Positions 16,023 to 60,857 of a stretch of 64,000 bases of DNA are shown here, one piece after another; the first letter of the stretch is position 1; each line of letters starts with the position of its first letter. Source of the stretch: Brachyspira murdochii DSM 12563 (GTDB taxonomy: Bacteria > Spirochaetota > Brachyspiria > Brachyspirales > Brachyspiraceae); the NCBI RefSeq assembly GCF_000092845.1, contig NC_014150.1, positions 1,636,919 through 1,700,918 of the forward strand, in the 5' to 3' direction. Under the pieces are notes generated by a model that ran no database searches, was not told where the DNA came from, and was given only the letters and a program-made list of their open reading frames with translations. The position numbers and the translations under genes are program-made.

Positions 16023-16448
16023 ACGCACGTTTAATCGATTTTTGTAATAACTAAATATGCGTTCTAATTTGTATCGTATATAAATGTTTCATGCTGCGTG
16101 CGTAGTATAAATGCCAATTTAAATAAAGCTAGGGTGGGGTGCTTTTGATGGGGAGGCTTATATATTTAATTAAATATAATAAAAAAATAAAGCTTTTAAA
16201 TCTGAAAGGGAGGGGATTAAGATAAAGTTAAAAATTTATTTTAATTCCCGCCCTCTAAATTCTTTAATCCCATACTATTATTTTTAGACAATTTTTATTT
16301 CTTTATATTTTACTGTTACTATAGCTGCCCGCCCAAGTGCTTTTTTTATTTATAATATTCCTAAACGCACGTTTAACTTAATTTTTTTATTTTGATAAAA
16401 ATTGAATTGTTGATTAGACTGTATCTTAAAAATACATTCTGCGTGCGT
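16023..16448 (+). repeat. Composite ACGCACG repeat, forward: unit-L-R-unit
   Basis: Two units of 81 and 84 bp (16023-16103 and 16365-16448), each starting ACGCACG and ending CGTGCGT, lie in the same orientation. Between them are a left part with a purine-rich GGGAGGGGATT end and a right part with CCCGCCCTC and CTGCCCGCCCAAGTGC, which together form a loose GC-rich hairpin. The same arrangement is at 34563-34995. There is no coding sequence. The region 15919-16022 upstream holds only AT-rich DNA. Confidence 0.8.
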
Positions 16449-17265: not shown

Positions 17266-17291
17266 ATAGAAATATATAAAATTTTATTTAC

Positions 17292-17612
17292 ATTCCCCCC
17301 CTTTTAGATTGAGTGCTTTATTTTTCTTATTAGGTTTTAATTAAATATAAAAGCCTATATTTTTTAAGCACACCCGCCCAAAACGTAATTTAAATTTGCA
17401 CTTCCTCTACGCACGTAAAGCTAATTTTTAAAATATAGGTTAATTAATAATTCTAATTTTGCCATATATAAGAATCAATTAAACGTGCGTTGGTCATAAT
17501 TATAAAATTTACAACGCACTTGGGTGGGCAGCCAAAAATAACAGTAAAAGTTAAAAAATAAAAATCATACAGAAATAACAGATAGTATTAAAAAAATTTA
17601 AAGGGTGGGGAA
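17292..17612 (-). repeat. Composite ACGCACG repeat, inverted: R-unit-L
   Basis: Read on the - strand: CCCCACCCTTTAA and CTGCCCACCCAAGTGCG (right part), then a unit ACGCACG...CGTGCGT (17490 down to 17409), then GGGCGGGTGTGCTT and the A-A-T-C-T-A-A-A-A-G-G-G-G end (left part). It lies 27 bases after the ankyrin gene and mirrors the copy at 16023-16448. Confidence 0.8.
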
Positions 17613-17655
17613 TGAAAATAATTTTAAAATAAAAATACGATTATAAATCTCACAG

Positions 17656-28468: not shown

Positions 28469-29160
28469 TTATAGTTTTCCTATTTTCTCTATACTTAAGC
28501 CTGTATATTTTGAAATGCTGCTCAAATCTACTTTATCATTTTTCATATTTTTAGCTAATGAAATTTTTTATTTTTCTATACCTTCTTTAACACCTTCTTC
28601 TATTACTAATCTCCTCTCTTCTTCAAGCATTATTTGATTACCATATAAATAAGCCTCTCTTTTATTGTACTCATTCATCATAAGTCTATCTTTAATAAAA
28701 TTATTATATCTTTTTTGTACTTCTTCCATTATAGGTTTTTCTTTTACTAATTCTGACATAATTTCCTCCTTGCTGTCTTTCTCTTTCATAGTAAAAAATT
28801 TAAGCCAACAGTTTAAATTATATTCCAATAAATTATATTTAAATTTTTTAAGTTCAATTATATGAATTTGTAAATGATCTGTTATAAGTTTTTTATTATT
28901 TATTTTATAAATCATATAACATGAATGTATATTATTAGTATCGTCTAAATTAAAATCTAATAAATTTATACTTATAACTGGTGTTAAAGCATCATATTTT
29001 TCTCCATGCTTTAAGAGTTTACTATAATTTTATTCCAATAATATAATATTCTTTCTGGAAATCTTGAATTACCTTGAAACTGTATTTCTATTATAACAAC
29101 AGTACCATTTTGTGTAATACATTTCATCTCTATATGTCCACCTTCGGTGCTATTGTTTCT
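28469..29160 (-). pseudogene. Broken Rpn-family (PD-(D/E)XK) nuclease gene
   Basis: This region is clearly homologous to the intact gene at 57705-58613 but lacks its first 70 or so codons. Internal damage is visible: a frameshift near 29020 (the W-S-V-N-Y-S-K-L-L region becomes out of frame) and an in-frame TAA at about 28568 after G-I-E-K. The final codons (K-N-M-K-N...T-G-L-S-I-E-K-I-G-K-L) still match. A 115-codon open remnant spans 28568-28915. The family has many near-identical copies in spirochaetes and is linked to recombination. Confidence 0.85.
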
Positions 29161-34562: not shown

Positions 34563-34995
34563 ACGCACGTTAAACTTAATTCTTATATATAATGAAATTA
34601 AAATTATTAATTAATTTGTATTTAAAAAATCCATTCTGCGTGCGTTTTGAAAAGTATTAAATTTAAATAACGCTTGGGCGGGAGTGCTTGAAAAAATATA
34701 TACTCATAGATTTAATCAAAGTCCATATAAAAAAACAAAGCTTTTAAATCTAAAAGGGCGGGGATTTAAATAAAGTTTAAAAATCTATTCTCACTCCCCA
34801 CCCTCCAAATTTTAAAATATTATCTTTTATTTATAAATCGTTTTTAGTACTTTACTTTTACTGTTATTCTGGCTGCCCACCCAAGTGCGTTTTTTATTTA
34901 TAATATTATATAACGCACGTTAAACTTAATTTTTATATATAATTAAATTAGAATTATTAATTAATCTATATTAAAAAAATACTCTCTGCGTGCGT
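34563..34995 (+). repeat. Composite ACGCACG repeat, forward: unit-L-R-unit, empty
   Basis: Units at 34563-34645 and 34913-34995, both 83 bp, start ACGCACG and end CGTGCGT in direct orientation. Between them, the left part ends AAAAGGGCGGGGATT and the right part begins CACTCCCCACCCTCC, an imperfect hairpin whose loop is the place occupied by a gene in the copy at 57480-58876. The right part carries GGCTGCCCACCCAAGTGCG just before the second unit. Nothing coding is seen in 34514-35076. Confidence 0.85.
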
Positions 34996-48013: not shown

Positions 48014-48215
48014 AAATCCCCGCCCTTTTAGATTTAAAAGCTTTATTTTTTTAATAGGTTTTAATTAAATTTATAAGTTTGTATTTTTTAAGCATACCCG
48101 CCCAAGCGTAATTTAAATTTGCACTTTACTCCACGCACGTAGAGATGATTTTTTAATACAGATTAATTAATAATTCTAACTTTACTAATATATAAGAATT
48201 AAGTTTAACGTGCGT
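48014..48215 (-). repeat. ACGCACG repeat, inverted, unit plus left part only
   Basis: On the - strand: a unit ACGCACG...CGTGCGT (48215 down to 48133), then GGGCGGGTATGCTT and the AAAGCTTTTAAATCTAAAAGGGCGGGGATT end. The right part is missing. It stands directly downstream of the transaldolase terminator. Confidence 0.8.
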
Positions 48216-53502: not shown

Positions 53503-56361
53503 TTATTCATTGGTAACTAGCTTATCTTCGCTTCCATTAACTTTGCCGTCTTTATCTACTTTTACAGTAAATATTTTAGACACTCCTTTCTCTTCGGCAG
53601 TTATTCCATAATAGGCATCTGCTATTGTGGCAGCTACTTCATCATGCGTAATGATTAAAAACTGAGTATTATTAGATAGATTTTTAACCATGTTCTTGTA
53701 TCTTATAATATTAGCTCCGTCAAGTGCAGCGTCCACCTCATCTAATATACAGAAAGGACTAGGTCTGTACAAAAATATTGCAAATACCAAAGCAAGCCCT
53801 GTCATAGTAAGCTCTCCTCCTGAATATGACACTATATTTTCCATCTTTTTGCCCGGAGGCTGAGCGAATATATCTATAGGGCTGTTTAATAGATCCTCTT
53901 CATTTTGTATTTTTAATCCTGCATTACCGCCGCCGAATAATATTTTAAAAGTCTCTGAGAATTTTTTATTTATTTCATTAAATGTTTTTAAGAAATCCTC
54001 TCCTGCCTTTTTATTGGCGTCTGCTATAATTTTTAATATTTCTTCTTTTGATTTCTCTAAGTCTTCTTTTTGTTTGCTCAAAAACTCAAATTTATTTTTA
54101 GCTTCCTGATATTCGTCCAAAGCCATTTCATTAATATGACCTAGATTTTTTATTTTTTCATTGATAGAGTTTAATTTATTTTTAAATGCATCTTCATCTA
54201 TAAGATTTTGAGTATTCTCTTCAAACTCTTTCAAATTAAGAGCATAATTTTCATAGAAATGAGTATATATATCATTAATTTTATCTTTGCTCTGATTTAT
54301 TCTCTCGCTTACTCTTGTAATGTTTTCATTTGTTTCATTTAATTTTCTAACTCGTTTTGCATGGCTTACTTCAAAATTAGATAATGCCGATTCTGCCTTT
54401 TTTATTTCATTAGCTTTATGTCTTGATTCGCTTTCTGTTTTTGATTTTTTCTTTTCTAATTCTTTATAGCTTATAGAGTTTTGTTTGTATTCTTCATTAA
54501 GTTTTTTATAATCTTCTTCAAGTCTTGCTATTTTTTCATTGAGCGTTGCAAACTCATCTTCTATTATTTTCATGCTTTTTATTATCATCTCTTTTCTGTC
54601 TTCAGAGGCTTTTTTGTTAGTTTCGTATTTAGCCCTTTCTATTGTAAGAGTAGTAAGCATCGCATTAGATTTATTAATATTATCAGTGGATAATTTTATT
54701 TCATTATTTAAATCTTCCATTTTTTCTATATTGCTTTTAATAAAGTTTTCCAAATCGGCAATCTCTTTATCTATTGCCTCCTTTTGCATATATGTACCTT
54801 CTTTATCAAAAAGCAAATCAACGAAAGGGTCTTTTATTTTAGTATATTCTTTAAAAATGCCCTGTAAAAATAATGCATCTTTTTTTTCTATTTCTAAACT
54901 CTCTCCCAAATTTTTTATAAAGCCGCATAATGAATTAAAGCTAAGTTCATTTAAACTTGATAATACGCCTTCTTCTTCAAATTCTTTTATAGTTTTCATC
55001 TTTGTATTTATCGCATTAAGTAAATTATTAAAGCCTATATCAATATCACTTTCATGTTTTCCTATATTCTGATAAAAGCTGTTTCCCATAACATCTTTTT
55101 TCTTTTCATCAATCTCGCTTATAATTTTATTTATTACGTCAAGCTGTCTTTCTCTTGCGTCTGCAATTTTTAAAGTAGCGTTTTGATTTTCTTCTGTCAT
55201 AGAAGATATTTTATCATTTAAACTTGCTATTTTATTTTGTTCATTTGCTATATTGGTTTCTTCAATTTCCTGTTCTTTTAATGATCTCTCTATATTTTCA
55301 GCTATATTTTTAACTTCTTCTTCAAGTTCTGCTATTTGAGTTTTATCTTCTTCTATTCTTTTTAAGAGAGTATTTTTTCTGTTAAGAGTCTCTTCTTTTT
55401 CTTTGCCTGCATTGTCAAGCTGATTCTTTAATTGGTTCGACATCTTCTCTATATGCGTAAGTTCCGTAACTATTAATGATACCTGTTTATCAAGCTCTAT
55501 AGACAAACTTCTTGTCTCTTCAAATTTTAAAAGTTCCTGCTGTTTCTGATTGTCCAAATCTTGAAGTTCTTTTTCTAATTCCTGTTTTTTATTATTATGC
55601 TCTTCAAGGCTTTTATTCTGCTCTTCTAAAGTAATTTTTAATTTTTTTACCTGATTAACATTCAAGCTAATACTTATTTTTTTCTGTTCATCTTTAAGAT
55701 TATAATATTTTTCTGTTCTTGCTGCCTGTTCTTTTAAGGATTTATAATGTTTTTCAGATTCTTTGATTTGTATTTTTACATTGTCAAGATTTCTTTCGGA
55801 TTCTTCAAGTTTTTTGGCAGCCTCTCTTCTTCTTTCAAGATATTTACTAATTCCAGCTGCATTTTCTATAATGCTTCTTCTCTCTTCTGGCTTTTGTTTT
55901 GCTATTTCAGAAACTGTACCCTGCTTAATAACAGAGTAGGCATTTTTACCAAGTCCAGTATCCAAAAACATATCAACTATATCTTTTAAACGTACCTGCT
56001 CATCATTAATATAATATTCTGACAAGCCTTTTCTATAATATTTACGAGTAACAACAACCTCGTCTGTATCGTATTTTTTTATCCATCTTGATTTATTATC
56101 TAGCGTGAGTGCAACTTGTGCTAGTGAAGAAGGTTTTCTAGTATCAGTACCATGAAAAATTACGCTTTCAAGACCTTTTGAGCTGTCTATTCTTAATCTG
56201 CTTGCAGACTGCTCGCCCATAACCCATAGAAAAGCCTCTACTATATTACTTTTACCTATTCCGTTTGGTCCAAGTACTACAGTAACACCTTCATTAAACT
56301 CTATATTGGTTTCTATGGCAAATGATTTGAATCCGTGCAAATTAAGATTCTTTATATACAT
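53503..56361 (-). CDS. smc: Chromosome segregation protein SMC, short form
   Basis: A 952-residue SMC ATPase. Walker A is G-P-N-G-I-G-K-S-N near residue 32, the N-terminal block V-M-G-E-Q-S-A follows, the signature S-Y-S-G-G-E-L lies near 845, and Walker B F-C-I-L-D-E-V-D-A-A-L-D near 870. Two long coiled coils span about 170-420 and 540-800. The central 420-540 segment lacks the glycine-rich motifs of the standard hinge, and the protein is about 200 residues shorter than typical bacterial SMC. It condenses and segregates the chromosome with ScpAB. AGGA precedes the start. Confidence 0.9.
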   Translation of the reverse strand: MYIKNLNLHGFKSFAIETNIEFNEGVTVVLGPNGIGKSNIVEAFLWVMGEQSASRLRIDSSKGLESVIFHGTDTRKPSSLAQVALTLDNKSRWIKKYDTDEVVVTRKYYRKGLSEYYINDEQVRLKDIVDMFLDTGLGKNAYSVIKQGTVSEIAKQKPEERRSIIENAAGISKYLERRREAAKKLEESERNLDNVKIQIKESEKHYKSLKEQAARTEKYYNLKDEQKKISISLNVNQVKKLKITLEEQNKSLEEHNNKKQELEKELQDLDNQKQQELLKFEETRSLSIELDKQVSLIVTELTHIEKMSNQLKNQLDNAGKEKEETLNRKNTLLKRIEEDKTQIAELEEEVKNIAENIERSLKEQEIEETNIANEQNKIASLNDKISSMTEENQNATLKIADARERQLDVINKIISEIDEKKKDVMGNSFYQNIGKHESDIDIGFNNLLNAINTKMKTIKEFEEEGVLSSLNELSFNSLCGFIKNLGESLEIEKKDALFLQGIFKEYTKIKDPFVDLLFDKEGTYMQKEAIDKEIADLENFIKSNIEKMEDLNNEIKLSTDNINKSNAMLTTLTIERAKYETNKKASEDRKEMIIKSMKIIEDEFATLNEKIARLEEDYKKLNEEYKQNSISYKELEKKKSKTESESRHKANEIKKAESALSNFEVSHAKRVRKLNETNENITRVSERINQSKDKINDIYTHFYENYALNLKEFEENTQNLIDEDAFKNKLNSINEKIKNLGHINEMALDEYQEAKNKFEFLSKQKEDLEKSKEEILKIIADANKKAGEDFLKTFNEINKKFSETFKILFGGGNAGLKIQNEEDLLNSPIDIFAQPPGKKMENIVSYSGGELTMTGLALVFAIFLYRPSPFCILDEVDAALDGANIIRYKNMVKNLSNNTQFLIITHDEVAATIADAYYGITAEEKGVSKIFTVKVDKDGKVNGSEDKLVTNE

Positions 56362-56547
56362 CTTGTTTCCTATCTTACCTTAATATATCTTTATAATTAT
56401 ACAATTCTATTAAAAAATAATCAATTAATTTAATCTATAATATATAATATATAAAAATACTATAAATTTATTTTAATTTTATTGATAAAAATATAATTAC
56501 GATAACAAATTTTCGGTATAGTTATTTGTTATTTTAATCAAATAATA

Positions 56548-56576
56548 TTGACATAAATGATTTAATATTTTATAAT
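56548..56576 (+). promoter_or_regulatory. Consensus promoter ending 6 bases before a start codon
   Basis: TTGACA (56548-56553), 17-base spacer, TATAAT (56571-56576): both boxes are perfect. The ATG at 56583 is where transcription would begin, implying a leaderless transcript. The rest of 56362-56547 is AT-rich without a visible gene. Confidence 0.8.
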
Positions 56577-56582
56577 AGCGTT

Positions 56583-56974
56583 ATGAAAGCAATATTTACT
56601 TTATTGAATAATACACTCGACACTCGACACTCGACACTCGACACTCGACACTCGACACTCGACACTCGACACTCGACACTCGACACTCGACTAATAATTT
56701 AAACCTTTCAAAAAAATCAATATCATCTGAAAATTATAATAATTATAAAAAAATATATTTTTCTTTATACGCATTTCAGTCAATATTTTCATTGCAAATA
56801 ATTTTAAAACTTTATTTATTTAATTCAATCAAAAAACAATTATTTATAATAAGAAATTATCAAAGATTCATTATTATATATTTTCTCAATTTTTTGAGAA
56901 TATTTTTTAACTATGATAAAAGCATTTTAAATAATGTTTTTTATAAAAATTATCATTTACACAAGGAGTTCTAA
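56583..56974 (+). CDS. Small repeat-started protein, currently out of frame (possible gene fragment)
   Basis: From the ATG at 56583 ten codons lead into a pure ACACTCG array. In the present copy number the frame stops at 56700. One more copy (or two fewer) would join it to a frame that is open to 56974, giving 132 residues. The tail is rich in I, F, Y, N and K with a hydrophobic, possibly membrane-associated centre, and is much shorter than the glycosyltransferase that carries the analogous array at 37546. It may be the truncated remnant of a similar gene. No function is recognised. Confidence 0.5.
56613..56691 (+). repeat. Pure heptanucleotide repeat ACACTCG x 11
   Basis: Eleven perfect copies (56613-56689) plus two bases. 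It lies 30 bases after a start codon that directly follows a consensus promoter. The unit sequence differs from the CTT/AAG-type heptamer at 37546, but the design is the same. Confidence 0.95.
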
Positions 56975-56975
56975 T

Positions 56976-57395
56976 ATGAACAAAAAATTATTATCTATTC
57001 TTTTTACTTTATTTTTATCAGGCATTTTATCTGTAAGCTGTTCAAATGCAGATAAAACAGCTCAAGGAACAGGTATAGACAGCAAATATGCAGGTACTTG
57101 GTTAGGAGGCGGAGATTTAGCAGGTCAAACAATTATTATAAATGCAGACGGTTCAGCACAAAATCAAACTGAGGGTGTTGATATGCCTGCTTCAAGTATA
57201 ACTAAAAATTCTGATACTTCATATACAGTAAATTATACTCTTAATCCTAGCAGTGGATTTACAGTAAAAGGCACTATGAATATAGAATTTACTACTGATA
57301 CTTCTGCTAATGTTACAGGTCAAAATATAATTACTTACCAAGGCGGAAGTGAAACTCAAAACATTAATGGTACTTTAACTAAGCAGCAACAATAA
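56976..57395 (+). CDS. Predicted lipoprotein
   Basis: A 139-residue protein starting at the ATG with AAGGAG 10 bases upstream; an ATG at 56934 in frame is less likely because it lies inside the preceding frame. The leader N-K-K-L-L-S-I-L-F-T ends with the lipobox S-V-S-C. The mature part begins N-A-D-K-T-A-Q and contains G-T-W-L-G-G-G and a G-T-L-T-K ending, which resembles small spirochaetal lipoproteins such as that at 5665 (G-T-W start, W-T-K end). Function unknown. Confidence 0.8.
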   Translation: MNKKLLSILFTLFLSGILSVSCSNADKTAQGTGIDSKYAGTWLGGGDLAGQTIIINADGSAQNQTEGVDMPASSITKNSDTSYTVNYTLNPSSGFTVKGTMNIEFTTDTSANVTGQNIITYQGGSETQNINGTLTKQQQ

Positions 57396-57415
57396 TCAAT
57401 CATATTCTTTTAATT

Positions 57416-57466
57416 AATGCTTAAACTATTTAAAAGTTATTAATTAGTTTAAGCATTTTATTTTTT
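57416..57466 (+). terminator. Intrinsic terminator after the lipoprotein gene
   Basis: AATGCTTAAACTA pairs perfectly with TAGTTTAAGCATT over a 16-base loop, followed by T-rich sequence. Confidence 0.75.
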
Positions 57467-57479
57467 AATTTCTTAATTA

Positions 57480-57680
57480 CCGCACGCAGAATAGATTTTA
57501 AAATTAACTTTATTAATAATTCTAAACTTATGTGCACAAATAAAATTTTGCTATACGTGCGTGATTGAACGTATAAAATTTAAATCGCATTAGGGTGGGT
57601 ATGCCCAAAAATAGTAGGTTTATAATTTTAATCAAAGTATATATAAAAAATAAAGCTTTTAAATCTAAAAGGGTGGGGAT
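57480..57680 (+). repeat. ACGCACG repeat, left part with its unit flipped
   Basis: The unit (57480-57562) reads CGCACGCAGAAT...TACGTGCGTG, which is reversed relative to the left part that follows in normal orientation (TTAGGGTGGGTATGCC, then AAAGCTTTTAAATCTAAAAGGGTGGGGATT). In all other copies unit and left part share one orientation. The Rpn-type nuclease gene follows. Confidence 0.75.
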
Positions 57681-57704
57681 TAAAGTAAAATTTTTATATT
57701 TTTA

Positions 57705-58613
57705 TTATAGTTTCTCTACTTCTTCTATACTTAATCCTGTTAATTCACTGATAAGACTTATATCCATATTTTTATTTTTCATATTTTTAGCCATAGATAT
57801 TTGGGTTTCTTTAATACCTTCTTTAATACCTTTTTCAATTCCTTGTTCTATACCTTCTTTCAATCCTTCTTCCCTTCCTAATTTTCTTTCCTCATCAAGC
57901 ATTATTTGATTACCATATAAATAAGTCTCTTTTTTCTCATATTCCATCATCATCAATCTGCTTTTCACAAAATTATTATATTTTTTCTGCACTTCCTCCA
58001 TTATAGGTTTTTCTTTTACTATTTCAGACATAGACGCCTCCAAATTTTTACTTGTAAATACTTTTAGCCAGCAATTTAAATCTTTTGATAAAATATTTTT
58101 CTTAAATTTTTTTAACTCTATTATATGTATCTGTAGATGGTCAGTTAATAACTTTTTATTATTCATCTCATAGAGCATATAACATGAATGTATATTTTTA
58201 GTTTTATCTAAATTGAAATTAAGAAGATTAATACTTATCACTGGAGTAAGTTCATCATATCTTTCTCCATGCTTTAATAATTTACTGTAATTAACTGACC
58301 AATAATAAAGTATTCGTTCTGGAAATCTTGAATTGCCTTGTAATTGTATTTCTATTATAACAACAGATCCATTCTGAGTGATACATTTAACATCTACTAT
58401 TGTTTCTTTTAAATTCCTATTTTTTTTTAAATTAAATGGAGTAAGAATTTCAACAGAACGAAAAGTCTTCATATTAGCATTAATCATTATAGAATTAATA
58501 AAGTCTAAAAGTATAGACTCGCTACTTCCTTTATCAGTAAAAAGATAACGTATGAAATAATCATTTAAAGGATTAAAATATTTTATTTGTTTTGTATTTA
58601 ATTTCTTTTTCAT
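57705..58613 (-). CDS. Rpn-family recombination-promoting nuclease (PD-(D/E)XK transposase-like)
   Basis: A 302-residue protein. The start F-N-P-L-N-D-Y-F-I-R-Y-L-F-T-D-K-G-S, the block V-D-V-K-C-I-T-Q-N-G-S-V-V-I-I-E-I-Q (D and E-x-Q of the PD-(D/E)XK core), and the G-R-E-E-G-L-K-E-G-I-E-Q-G repeat tail near residue 245 identify the Rpn/PDDEXK_2 family. Members promote RecA-independent recombination and occur in multiple copies. A broken paralogue is at 28469-29160. This intact copy lies between the left and right parts of an ACGCACG composite repeat. No ribosome-binding site is apparent. Confidence 0.85.
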   Translation of the reverse strand: MKKKLNTKQIKYFNPLNDYFIRYLFTDKGSSESILLDFINSIMINANMKTFRSVEILTPFNLKKNRNLKETIVDVKCITQNGSVVIIEIQLQGNSRFPERILYYWSVNYSKLLKHGERYDELTPVISINLLNFNLDKTKNIHSCYMLYEMNNKKLLTDHLQIHIIELKKFKKNILSKDLNCWLKVFTSKNLEASMSEIVKEKPIMEEVQKKYNNFVKSRLMMMEYEKKETYLYGNQIMLDEERKLGREEGLKEGIEQGIEKGIKEGIKETQISMAKNMKNKNMDISLISELTGLSIEEVEKL

Positions 58614-58659
58614 AAATATATTATAATTAAATAATGTATAAATGTCAAAGTATAATTTT

Positions 58660-58876
58660 TAGATTTTATTTTCACACCCACCCTTTAAATTTTTTTATAC
58701 GATTTGTTATTTATAAATTATTTTTCTTCTTTAGCTTTTGCTGTTACTCTGGCTGCCCACCCAAGTGCATTTTTAATTTATAATGCTAATCAACGCACGT
58801 TTAGTTTTATTCTTATAAGAAGTTAAAATTGCAATTATAAATTAGTTAATATTTTAAAAATCTGCTCTGCGTGCGA
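58660..58876 (+). repeat. ACGCACG repeat, right part plus unit
   Basis: CACACCCACCCTTTAAATTT, a GGCTGCCCACCCAAGTGC tract, then a unit ACGCACG (58793) to CGTGCG (58875). It is in the same orientation as the left part at 57566-57680, so together they form the filled version of the composite seen empty at 34563-34995. Its end abuts the uvrD-like stop codon (58878-58880). Confidence 0.8.
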
Positions 58877-58877
58877 A

Positions 58878-60857
58878 TTAATAATCAAAAGCATCTTCAT
58901 CTATATCCATGTAATTGCCGGAGTAATAATTAGCCTTTTCTTTTATAAGCATTAAACGCTTTGGTATTTCCATCAAAAATGATGAAGGTATCTGCTCCAT
59001 TATGCCAGAACTTATTCTTCTTTTTTTGGAGTAGGTGAGATAAAGTTTTCTTTTAGCCCTTGTTATTGCTACATAAAGAAGCCTTCTCTCTTCATCAATG
59101 CCCCCTTCCTCTTCAAGCGAGAAATAATGAGGAAAAACTCCCTGCTCTAAACCAGTTATAAATACAGCATCAAATTCCAGCCCCTTTGCATTATGCACAG
59201 TCATAAGAGTAATGTAATCTTCATTTTCGTTTTCTGTGTTAATGTCTCTATATAAAGTGTTTTCTTCCAAAAATGTTATCAGCGATGCATTAGGCTCTGT
59301 ATTTTTGTAGTCGTAAAAACCTCTGAAAAGCTCTTTTATATTCTCTTCTGCTGTTATTATTCTTTCATTGCCTTCGCTTTTAAATATTGAAAAATAATCT
59401 ATATCTTTTAAAAAATTAAAAAATATCTCTTCTATATGTATACCGTCTTCGTTTGAAATATCTTCTTTTATTTTTATGCCGTATTCTTCTATTATGCTTT
59501 TGTATGCCTTAATCGATGAAGCAACCTTTTTGCTTAATGATATTTCATCAGCATAATCAATAGCTTCATAAAGACTTATTTTTCTGGTATTAGCAAAGGT
59601 TTCTATACTGTTAAAACTCTTCTCTCCTATTCCTCTAGGAGGCACATTAACAGTACGCCTTACGCTGAAATTATCCCCAAACCCCATCATAAGCCTTAAA
59701 AAAGAAATAGAATCTTTTATCTCAATGCGTTCAAAAAATCCTACGCCTCCTACTATTTTATAGTTTATAGAATGAAGTTTTAATTCTTTTTCATATGCTC
59801 TTGATTGGCTGTTAGTCCTAAATAGTATTACTATGTCTTTAGCCTCAAATCCATTATCAAATAAACTCTCTATTTCATTAACTACACTTCTTGCCTCTTC
59901 CAAATCACTATAGCAAATCCAATTTTCTATTTTAAATTCGTTTGGTTTGTTTGAAAATACATTTTTTTCATGACGATTGGTATTATTTTTTATAATGCTT
60001 AAAGCTGCTTCCACTACATCTTTCGGACATCTGTAATTTTCTTCAAGACGCACTATTTTTGTATTAGGATAGTCTTTCTCAAAATCAAGTATATTAAGAA
60101 CATCAGCACCCCTAAATGCATATATACTCTGGTCATCATCGCCTACAACTGTTAAATCATTATCAGCGTTCTGTGTTAATAATTTTATGAGTTTGTACTG
60201 CTGAGGGTTCGTATCCTGAAACTCATCTACCAAAACATATTTGAATCTGTTTCTATAGAAGTTAAGAACTTTTTTCTCCTCTTCAAATAATTTTATGGTG
60301 TTTAATATAAGGTCGTCAAAATCCATCACATTTTCATTTAATTCATGCTCTGTATATTTTTTGTATACATTTTCAAAAATATCCCTGTCAAAAGTAATTC
60401 CGTCATCCATATTGTTTTTTACAGCGGATATAAATTTGTTTATCATTTTTGGAGTAATACTTTTTGGAACTTTCTCTTCTTTCATTATTCTTTTAATAAC
60501 GGATAATTTATCACCCTCATCTAATATAAGAAAATTAGACTTATAACCTAAAAAATGAGCATTCTCTTTTAATATCCTAAGACATGCGGAGTGAAAAGTT
60601 CTTATAAATAATCTGCTAGGCTTTATATCAGGTACAAGAGCAGATACTCTTTCTTTCATCTCATAAGCGGCTTTATTAGTAAAAGTAACAGCGATTATAT
60701 TTTCGGGCGGAGTTTCAAGCTCATTAATAAGATAGGCAATTTTTCTCGTAATCACCAAAGTTTTACCGCTTCCAGCCCCAGAAAGAAGAAGAAGAGGGCT
60801 TCCCCTATGCAAAATACCTTCTCTCTGAACCTCGCTCACATTTTGAAGTATATCCAT
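58878..60857 (-). CDS. UvrD/PcrA-type superfamily I DNA helicase
   Basis: A 659-residue 3'-5' helicase. Motif I is L-L-L-S-G-A-G-S-G-K-T near residue 25; motif Ia T-F-T-N-K-A-A follows; motif II is V-L-V-D-E-F-Q-D-T-N near 215; motif III D-D-Q-S-I-Y-A-F-R-G-A; motif IV near 300; motif V L-M-T-V-H-N-A-K-G-L-E-F; motif VI L-L-Y-V-A-I-T-R-A-K. It acts in nucleotide-excision and mismatch repair or removes stalled replication and transcription complexes. AAGGTGAT precedes the start. UvrD, PcrA and Rep cannot be told apart here; PcrA-like is most likely. Confidence 0.95.
   Translation of the reverse strand: MDILQNVSEVQREGILHRGSPLLLLSGAGSGKTLVITRKIAYLINELETPPENIIAVTFTNKAAYEMKERVSALVPDIKPSRLFIRTFHSACLRILKENAHFLGYKSNFLILDEGDKLSVIKRIMKEEKVPKSITPKMINKFISAVKNNMDDGITFDRDIFENVYKKYTEHELNENVMDFDDLILNTIKLFEEEKKVLNFYRNRFKYVLVDEFQDTNPQQYKLIKLLTQNADNDLTVVGDDDQSIYAFRGADVLNILDFEKDYPNTKIVRLEENYRCPKDVVEAALSIIKNNTNRHEKNVFSNKPNEFKIENWICYSDLEEARSVVNEIESLFDNGFEAKDIVILFRTNSQSRAYEKELKLHSINYKIVGGVGFFERIEIKDSISFLRLMMGFGDNFSVRRTVNVPPRGIGEKSFNSIETFANTRKISLYEAIDYADEISLSKKVASSIKAYKSIIEEYGIKIKEDISNEDGIHIEEIFFNFLKDIDYFSIFKSEGNERIITAEENIKELFRGFYDYKNTEPNASLITFLEENTLYRDINTENENEDYITLMTVHNAKGLEFDAVFITGLEQGVFPHYFSLEEEGGIDEERRLLYVAITRAKRKLYLTYSKKRRISSGIMEQIPSSFLMEIPKRLMLIKEKANYYSGNYMDIDEDAFDY

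Follow-up and report, generated by a model that had tools for sequence, protein, structure and literature searches.

The HH junction of a terminus-clustered palindromic repeat is a recurrent docking site for rpn nuclease genes in Brachyspira

Introduction

In other bacteria, rpn genes are anti-phage genes organised as RpnL/RpnS intragenic toxin-antitoxin systems (PMC10327210). As to their movement, the same study found that they spread horizontally with variable rather than defined ends, and with neither inverted repeats nor target duplications. One member of the family, the DNA endonuclease RpnA, promotes recombination independently of RecA, and its cutting in vitro is non-specific (PMC5350276).

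Here, we describe an rpn gene of Brachyspira murdochii that occupies the middle of a palindromic composite repeat. The stretch of DNA analysed (the window, 64,000 nucleotides) corresponds to positions 1,636,919–1,700,918 in one contig of 3,241,804 bp with dnaA at position 207. The relatives compared included B. innocens, B. hampsonii, B. alvinipulli, B. pilosicoli, Brachyspira sp. G79 and three metagenome bins (G014, G022 and G024). The work is a sequence analysis of one genome per species, with draft contigs that in places end in rpn and with profiles trained on one species.

Results

In the composite repeat, two modules, A (83 bp) and H (~120 bp), alternate as A-<H·H>-A. An A is followed by 13 bp, <H, an AT-rich spacer of ~33 bp, H>, a further 13 bp and the next A; the pattern recurs every ~350 bp, and arrays end either after an A or at an HH junction. 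Module A has the ends ACGCACG and CGTGCGT, and both of its strands match A's own profile; H carries GGGNGGG boxes near each end. Modules with ACGCACG and GGGNGGG exceeded all dinucleotide shuffles, and profile searches over 760 kb around the terminus of the B. murdochii genome (the terminus zone) found ~36 copies of A and 61 of H. The HH hairpin is of modest strength (z −2.1 versus shuffles), and the idea that A forms a strong single-strand hairpin was rejected, as its fold was no better than that of shuffles (z −1.3 and 0.0). An Rfam search of the window matched no known RNA family in the repeat, a tRNA being its only match.

Two half types, HL and HR, are differentiated in the murdochii/innocens/G79 group. 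There is no such differentiation in G014 or in G022/G024, where typing the orientation of rpn by profile is impossible. In G022, an H contains a 0.7-kb insert (L307 1843–2546, contig C21) that is not rpn and encodes a small membrane-like protein; the G024 counterpart (L308, C119) is an intact empty HH. The arrays of the window that lack rpn are as follows.

34563–34995, + strand: empty unit A-<H H>-A (HL 34660–34766, HR 34778–34899)
16023–16448, + strand: empty unit A-<H H>-A (HL 16116–16218, HR 16229–16351)
17278–17626, + strand: H>-A-<H unit, open at the HH junction on both ends
48015–48215, − strand: partial array, HL plus A

The left and right parts named in the original prediction are H in opposite orientations. 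They are indeed the parts found in the empty units; they are not joined directly, as had been supposed, but across ~30–33 bp of AT-rich spacer. The coordinates given there for filled and empty units were correct. In the filled unit (57480–58876), the two H halves, the two A modules and the 13-bp gaps between H and A are all intact, and rpn is placed exactly in the AT-rich spacer that separates <H from H>.

57481–57562, + strand: A module, left outer element (CCGCACG...CGTGCGT; nhmmer, genome 1694399–1694480)
57577–57681, + strand: left H half, HL type, ending in ...AAAGGGTGGGGATT (profile search)
57682–57704, + strand: HL-side spacer remnant between HL and the rpn stop codon, AAAGTAAAATTTTTATATTTTTA
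57705–58613, − strand: rpn gene, 302 aa, PD-(D/E)XK Rpn-family nuclease (RpnL; PF12784 E 2.3e-44, TIGR01784 E 2.5e-43)
57705–58031, − strand: predicted RpnS, 108 aa, starting MSEIVKEKPIME..., with the frame and stop of rpn
58620–58649, − strand: rpn promoter TTTGACA-17-TATAAT, immediately 5' of the rpn ATG (genome 1695538–1695567)
58650–58659, + strand: HR-side spacer remnant, first part, continuing into HR
58660–58779, + strand: right H half, HR type, ...CACCCACCC...GGCTGCCCACCCAAGTG (profile search)
58793–58875, + strand: A module, right outer element

The window Rpn scores far above both family cut-offs (PF12784, 152 bits versus 27.4; TIGR01784, 148.8 versus 52.1) and contains the stretch VDVK...VVIIEIQLQ; it is a predicted nuclease. 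An internal ATG (58029–58031) follows a GGAGG Shine-Dalgarno sequence (58037–58041), the whole site reading GGAGGCGTCTATG. In an rpn-centred sample of 93 loci from 26 genomes, an internal GGAGG-N5-ATG lies ahead of the C-terminal region in 74, and the predicted RpnS lengths are mostly 92, 96, 100, 104, 108, 112, 116, 120 and 124 residues, that is, in steps of four. Because an internal start and four-residue steps are the sequence marks reported for such systems (PMC10327210), the window gene carries the hallmarks of an RpnL/RpnS intragenic toxin-antitoxin, in which RpnS would block RpnL. It resembles described Rpn toxin-antitoxin genes (COG5464; PMC10327210, PMC5350276) in its TIGR01784/PF12784 match, its internal start and Shine-Dalgarno sequence before a variable C-terminal domain, its four-residue length steps, its multicopy state and its patchy distribution. 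At one B. innocens HH copy (L177/L314, C93 13.6–14.5 kb), the long nuclease frame is broken while the internal antitoxin frame is open; this copy is possibly an antitoxin-only relic.

The original prediction read the unit at 57480–58876 as a filled version of the empty sites and proposed a search for strains with the site empty. Beside the same uvrD gene, the relative Brachyspira sp. G79 has <H H> without the gene (L107), an empty orthologous site. At the uvrD locus of B. innocens (L106), <H rpn H> is followed in tandem by an additional empty unit. Both the anatomy of the insertion site and its empty and filled states are directly visible in these sequences, and they recur elsewhere. A second filled site of B. 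innocens (C87) has an empty orthologous HH in B. murdochii at 1,614,129, and a second G79 rpn lies at an array whose B. murdochii counterpart (1,476,449–1,477,000) lacks rpn. In G79, a ~165-bp H-A segment is identical on either side of rpn.

The gene opposite uvrD across the array differs among the three species: an SMC-like gene and a small lipoprotein gene in B. murdochii (window 53503–60857), an enoyl reductase gene in B. innocens (C106, C93) and a YbaK-like gene in G79 (C8, 2340 kb and 2543 kb). These differences place the arrays at rearrangement breakpoints, as expected if arrays recombine. In B. pilosicoli, rearrangements are symmetric about the origin or terminus (PMC3532143), a pattern compatible with recombination that moves rpn, although not a test of it.

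The rpn cassettes have no terminal inverted repeats in common: inverted matches within the same locus averaged 25.2 versus 23.4 in the cross-locus control, and the best of those around rpn are self-palindromic hairpins. Direct repeats in same-locus flanks exceeded the cross-locus 99% level at 8 of 87 loci, two of which (L124 and L203) were discarded as artefacts of tandem rpn copies. At HH sites, overlapping pieces of spacer are found on both sides of rpn (p 0–0.035 versus shuffles); the spacer is AT-rich and of low complexity, and a target duplication here is suggestive only.

Two other kinds of site were found, both outside the repeat. At L188, rpn separates two terminator hairpins, arranged back to back, that adjoin each other in G014 (L317), with an overlap of ~18 bp. 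At L131, a hairpin stands on each side of rpn that occurs only once at the empty paralogous sites of three genomes; here the overlap is 57–61 bp. The overlap varies among sites, from HH spacer pieces to ~18 bp and 57–61 bp. Together, the three site types (HH, L188 and L131) suggest that rpn enters at AT-rich gaps of palindromes. When L131 (B. innocens C111) was compared with its counterparts in three other species, L325 (B. murdochii 2718900–2723000), L322 and L323, the flanks were about 90–99% identical and the rpn genes 57–64%; near-identical flanks around divergent genes indicate that rpn was exchanged in place, one subfamily for another. We also observed tandem ~75-bp modules 3' of rpn at L004, L013, L015, L118, L119, L188 and L311, in which the last codons and the terminator hairpin are repeated (AAAAACTTGTGA...CAAGTTTTTTAT). 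These modules are perhaps scars of earlier exchanges.

Among the 93 sampled loci, H was found on the rpn-facing sides of six, one of which (C87) is visible on one side only because of a contig end. A search with the promoter pattern added five loci: B. innocens C42, G014 C102, G022 C21 with its G024 orthologue, and G022 C7. The promoter is no exclusive mark of HH copies, and its use as such was rejected, since it also occurs at L306, L311 and L312 without detectable H. In all, 11 rpn copies from six genomes and three rpn subfamilies (about 87–100%, 74% and 47% identical to the query) sit at an HH junction; besides the window copy there are four in B. innocens, one in G79, two each in G014 and G022 and one in G024. 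Some are incomplete or half-flanked: contig ends cut the filled sites C42, C87 and C102, and L313 has H on one side only. The association of rpn with HH in several species and rpn subfamilies amounts to more than a one-locus coincidence, and the HH junction is a recurrent docking site for rpn. The terminus zone, which was sampled without regard to rpn, has 19 empty HH junctions, one filled with rpn at short range and one with a wide gap (2.3 kb) occupied by ordinary genes.

In a rival reading, rpn lands anywhere harmless, and a single chance insertion into an HH spacer of a gene-free array was afterwards copied across arrays and species by homologous recombination. The murdochii, innocens and G79 copies fit this, as they have one junction, one promoter and one orientation relative to the HL/HR asymmetry and fall mostly in one rpn clade. 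Because the open reading frame was demonstrably swapped at the L131 locus, the other subfamilies may also be swaps. For the same reason, the rpn tree, on which the label "in HH" has to change three times or more, is weak as proof of independent insertions. However, the probability that an intergenic insertion at random falls in an HH spacer is ~0.001, so that only 0.03–0.1 hits are expected from 24–100 rpn insertions, whereas 8–11 HH-rpn loci, not all of them independent, are observed genus-wide. Moreover, every in-array copy occupies the HH spacer, with A, the 13-bp gaps and the interior of H all free of rpn, and the copies of G014, G022 and G024 are at other loci and belong to other rpn subfamilies. 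We therefore regard chance landing followed by copying as possible but unlikely.

Repeat and gene are distributed quite differently. In B. murdochii, 31 of 32 A/H array positions fall at 1.18–1.90 Mb of 3.24 Mb, with one A match at 0.91 Mb; all arrays lie in the half of the chromosome opposite dnaA (R 0.91). A like but weaker bias was found in G004, G007, G009 and G010 (R 0.60–0.78), so that the composite palindromic repeats are concentrated around the replication terminus in five of five genomes examined. The positions of rpn, in contrast, are distributed evenly over the whole chromosome (R 0.05, p 0.93), and only one of ~25 rpn genes or fragments of the B. murdochii genome is within the repeat. 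Another copy in the window is outside it.

28469–29160, − strand: decayed rpn copy, 5' truncated, with internal stops and without A/H flanks

This distribution bears on the proposal that rpn and the repeat together form a mobile unit of which the empty arrays are non-autonomous derivatives. The recurrent co-location at HH favours it, and that part of the predicted link between nuclease and repeat holds. The copy numbers of H and rpn also correlate across genomes (Spearman 0.82), but the queries of both searches came from the B. murdochii genome and relatedness to the query confounds the comparison, so it was set aside as evidence of linkage. The link is not reciprocal: about 94% of the 93 rpn loci lack the repeat, the very pattern that the original prediction had named as refuting it, and the gene is evenly spread whereas the repeats are terminus-bound and occur without a close rpn. 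Four genomes (G010, G013, G016 and G017) have at least five H matches but lack rpn at E≤1e-100; in G001, a single H match accompanies five rpn. Furthermore, the cassettes share no terminal inverted repeats, nothing of the rpn cassette is found in the empty units, and it has been argued that Rpn is not a transposase (PMC10327210). A mobile unit of this kind, with the repeats as its derivatives, is thus highly improbable. The A/H repeats are independent of Rpn, and we infer that they are a candidate structural or fragile element of the terminus region.

Discussion

The reading we favour, with a probability of roughly 60%, is that a promoter-plus-ORF rpn cassette entered HH gaps and was then spread and exchanged by recombination between flanking repeats. 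The cassette would consist of the sigma70 promoter and the rpn ORF, and its point of entry would be the ~33-bp AT-rich spacer that separates the inverted H halves, one of several docking sites bounded by palindromes. After docking, the H-rpn-H block could spread to further HH sites, and recombination between the repeats on either side, or between the conserved cassette ends, could replace the ORF. Spread and swapping by recombination are what the dispersal of the copies, their duplicated flanks and the in-place exchange would imply. Several points count against this reading: the murdochii, innocens and G79 HH copies are not independent, swapping means that different rpn subfamilies need not represent independent insertions, the low-complexity spacer leaves target duplication only suggestive, some filled sites are cut by contig ends or half-flanked, and rpn genes of other bacteria lack target duplications (PMC10327210).

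Alternatively, Rpn itself might assist the copying, by nicking or cutting at extruded palindromes or stalled forks so that repair copies H-rpn-H into an empty HH, much as a homing endonuclease of loose specificity would. The position of rpn at palindrome centres and between terminator hairpins, the several HH sites reached and the recombination-promoting activity of RpnA (PMC5350276) are in line with such a role. Yet RpnA cuts non-specifically in vitro (PMC5350276), the HH hairpin is modest and A weak, and the majority of HH sites remain empty, which makes an active role very unlikely. A broader form of the idea, in which rpn is a homing-like passenger, strikes us as quite unlikely too: either Rpn activity or replication stalling at terminus palindromes would drive copying of the cassette into empty sites, and the same sites would allow in-place exchange of antitoxin-matched alleles. 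If true, this would be a standing mechanism that diversifies Rpn phage defence.

Several known systems invite comparison with the arrangement described here. Like the A/H repeats, the matS sites of the E. coli Ter macrodomain occur only in a region of several hundred kb that surrounds the terminus, but the A/H repeats are composite palindromes of far greater length, which evolve fast and are in part tandem. A mobile gene inside intergenic palindromic repeats is also seen with the insertion sequences whose targets are REP/BIME palindromes (PMC1525189); in contrast to these, rpn lacks terminal inverted repeats and does not encode a known transposase, and the A and H modules (83 and 120 bp) are terminus-clustered whereas REPs measure 20–40 bp. 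REP-associated tyrosine transposases and their BIMEs (PMC2817692) offer a similar picture of modules alternating in orientation, with a nuclease gene between two inverted modules. However, Rpn is a PD-(D/E)XK protein and not an HUH/Y1 enzyme, and gene and repeat are mostly found apart; a REP/BIME with its transposase was rejected as an identification on the grounds of protein family and module length.

Compared with the rpn genes of other bacteria (PMC10327210), the HH copies of Brachyspira differ in their defined position in a palindrome spacer, in the existence of both filled and empty sites and in an apparent target duplication. They allow an unusual look at how mobile genes of this kind, otherwise unexplained, become established and disseminate, and with sites in both states, docking points bounded by hairpins and a clear case of in-place exchange, the movement of rpn becomes testable in strain collections.
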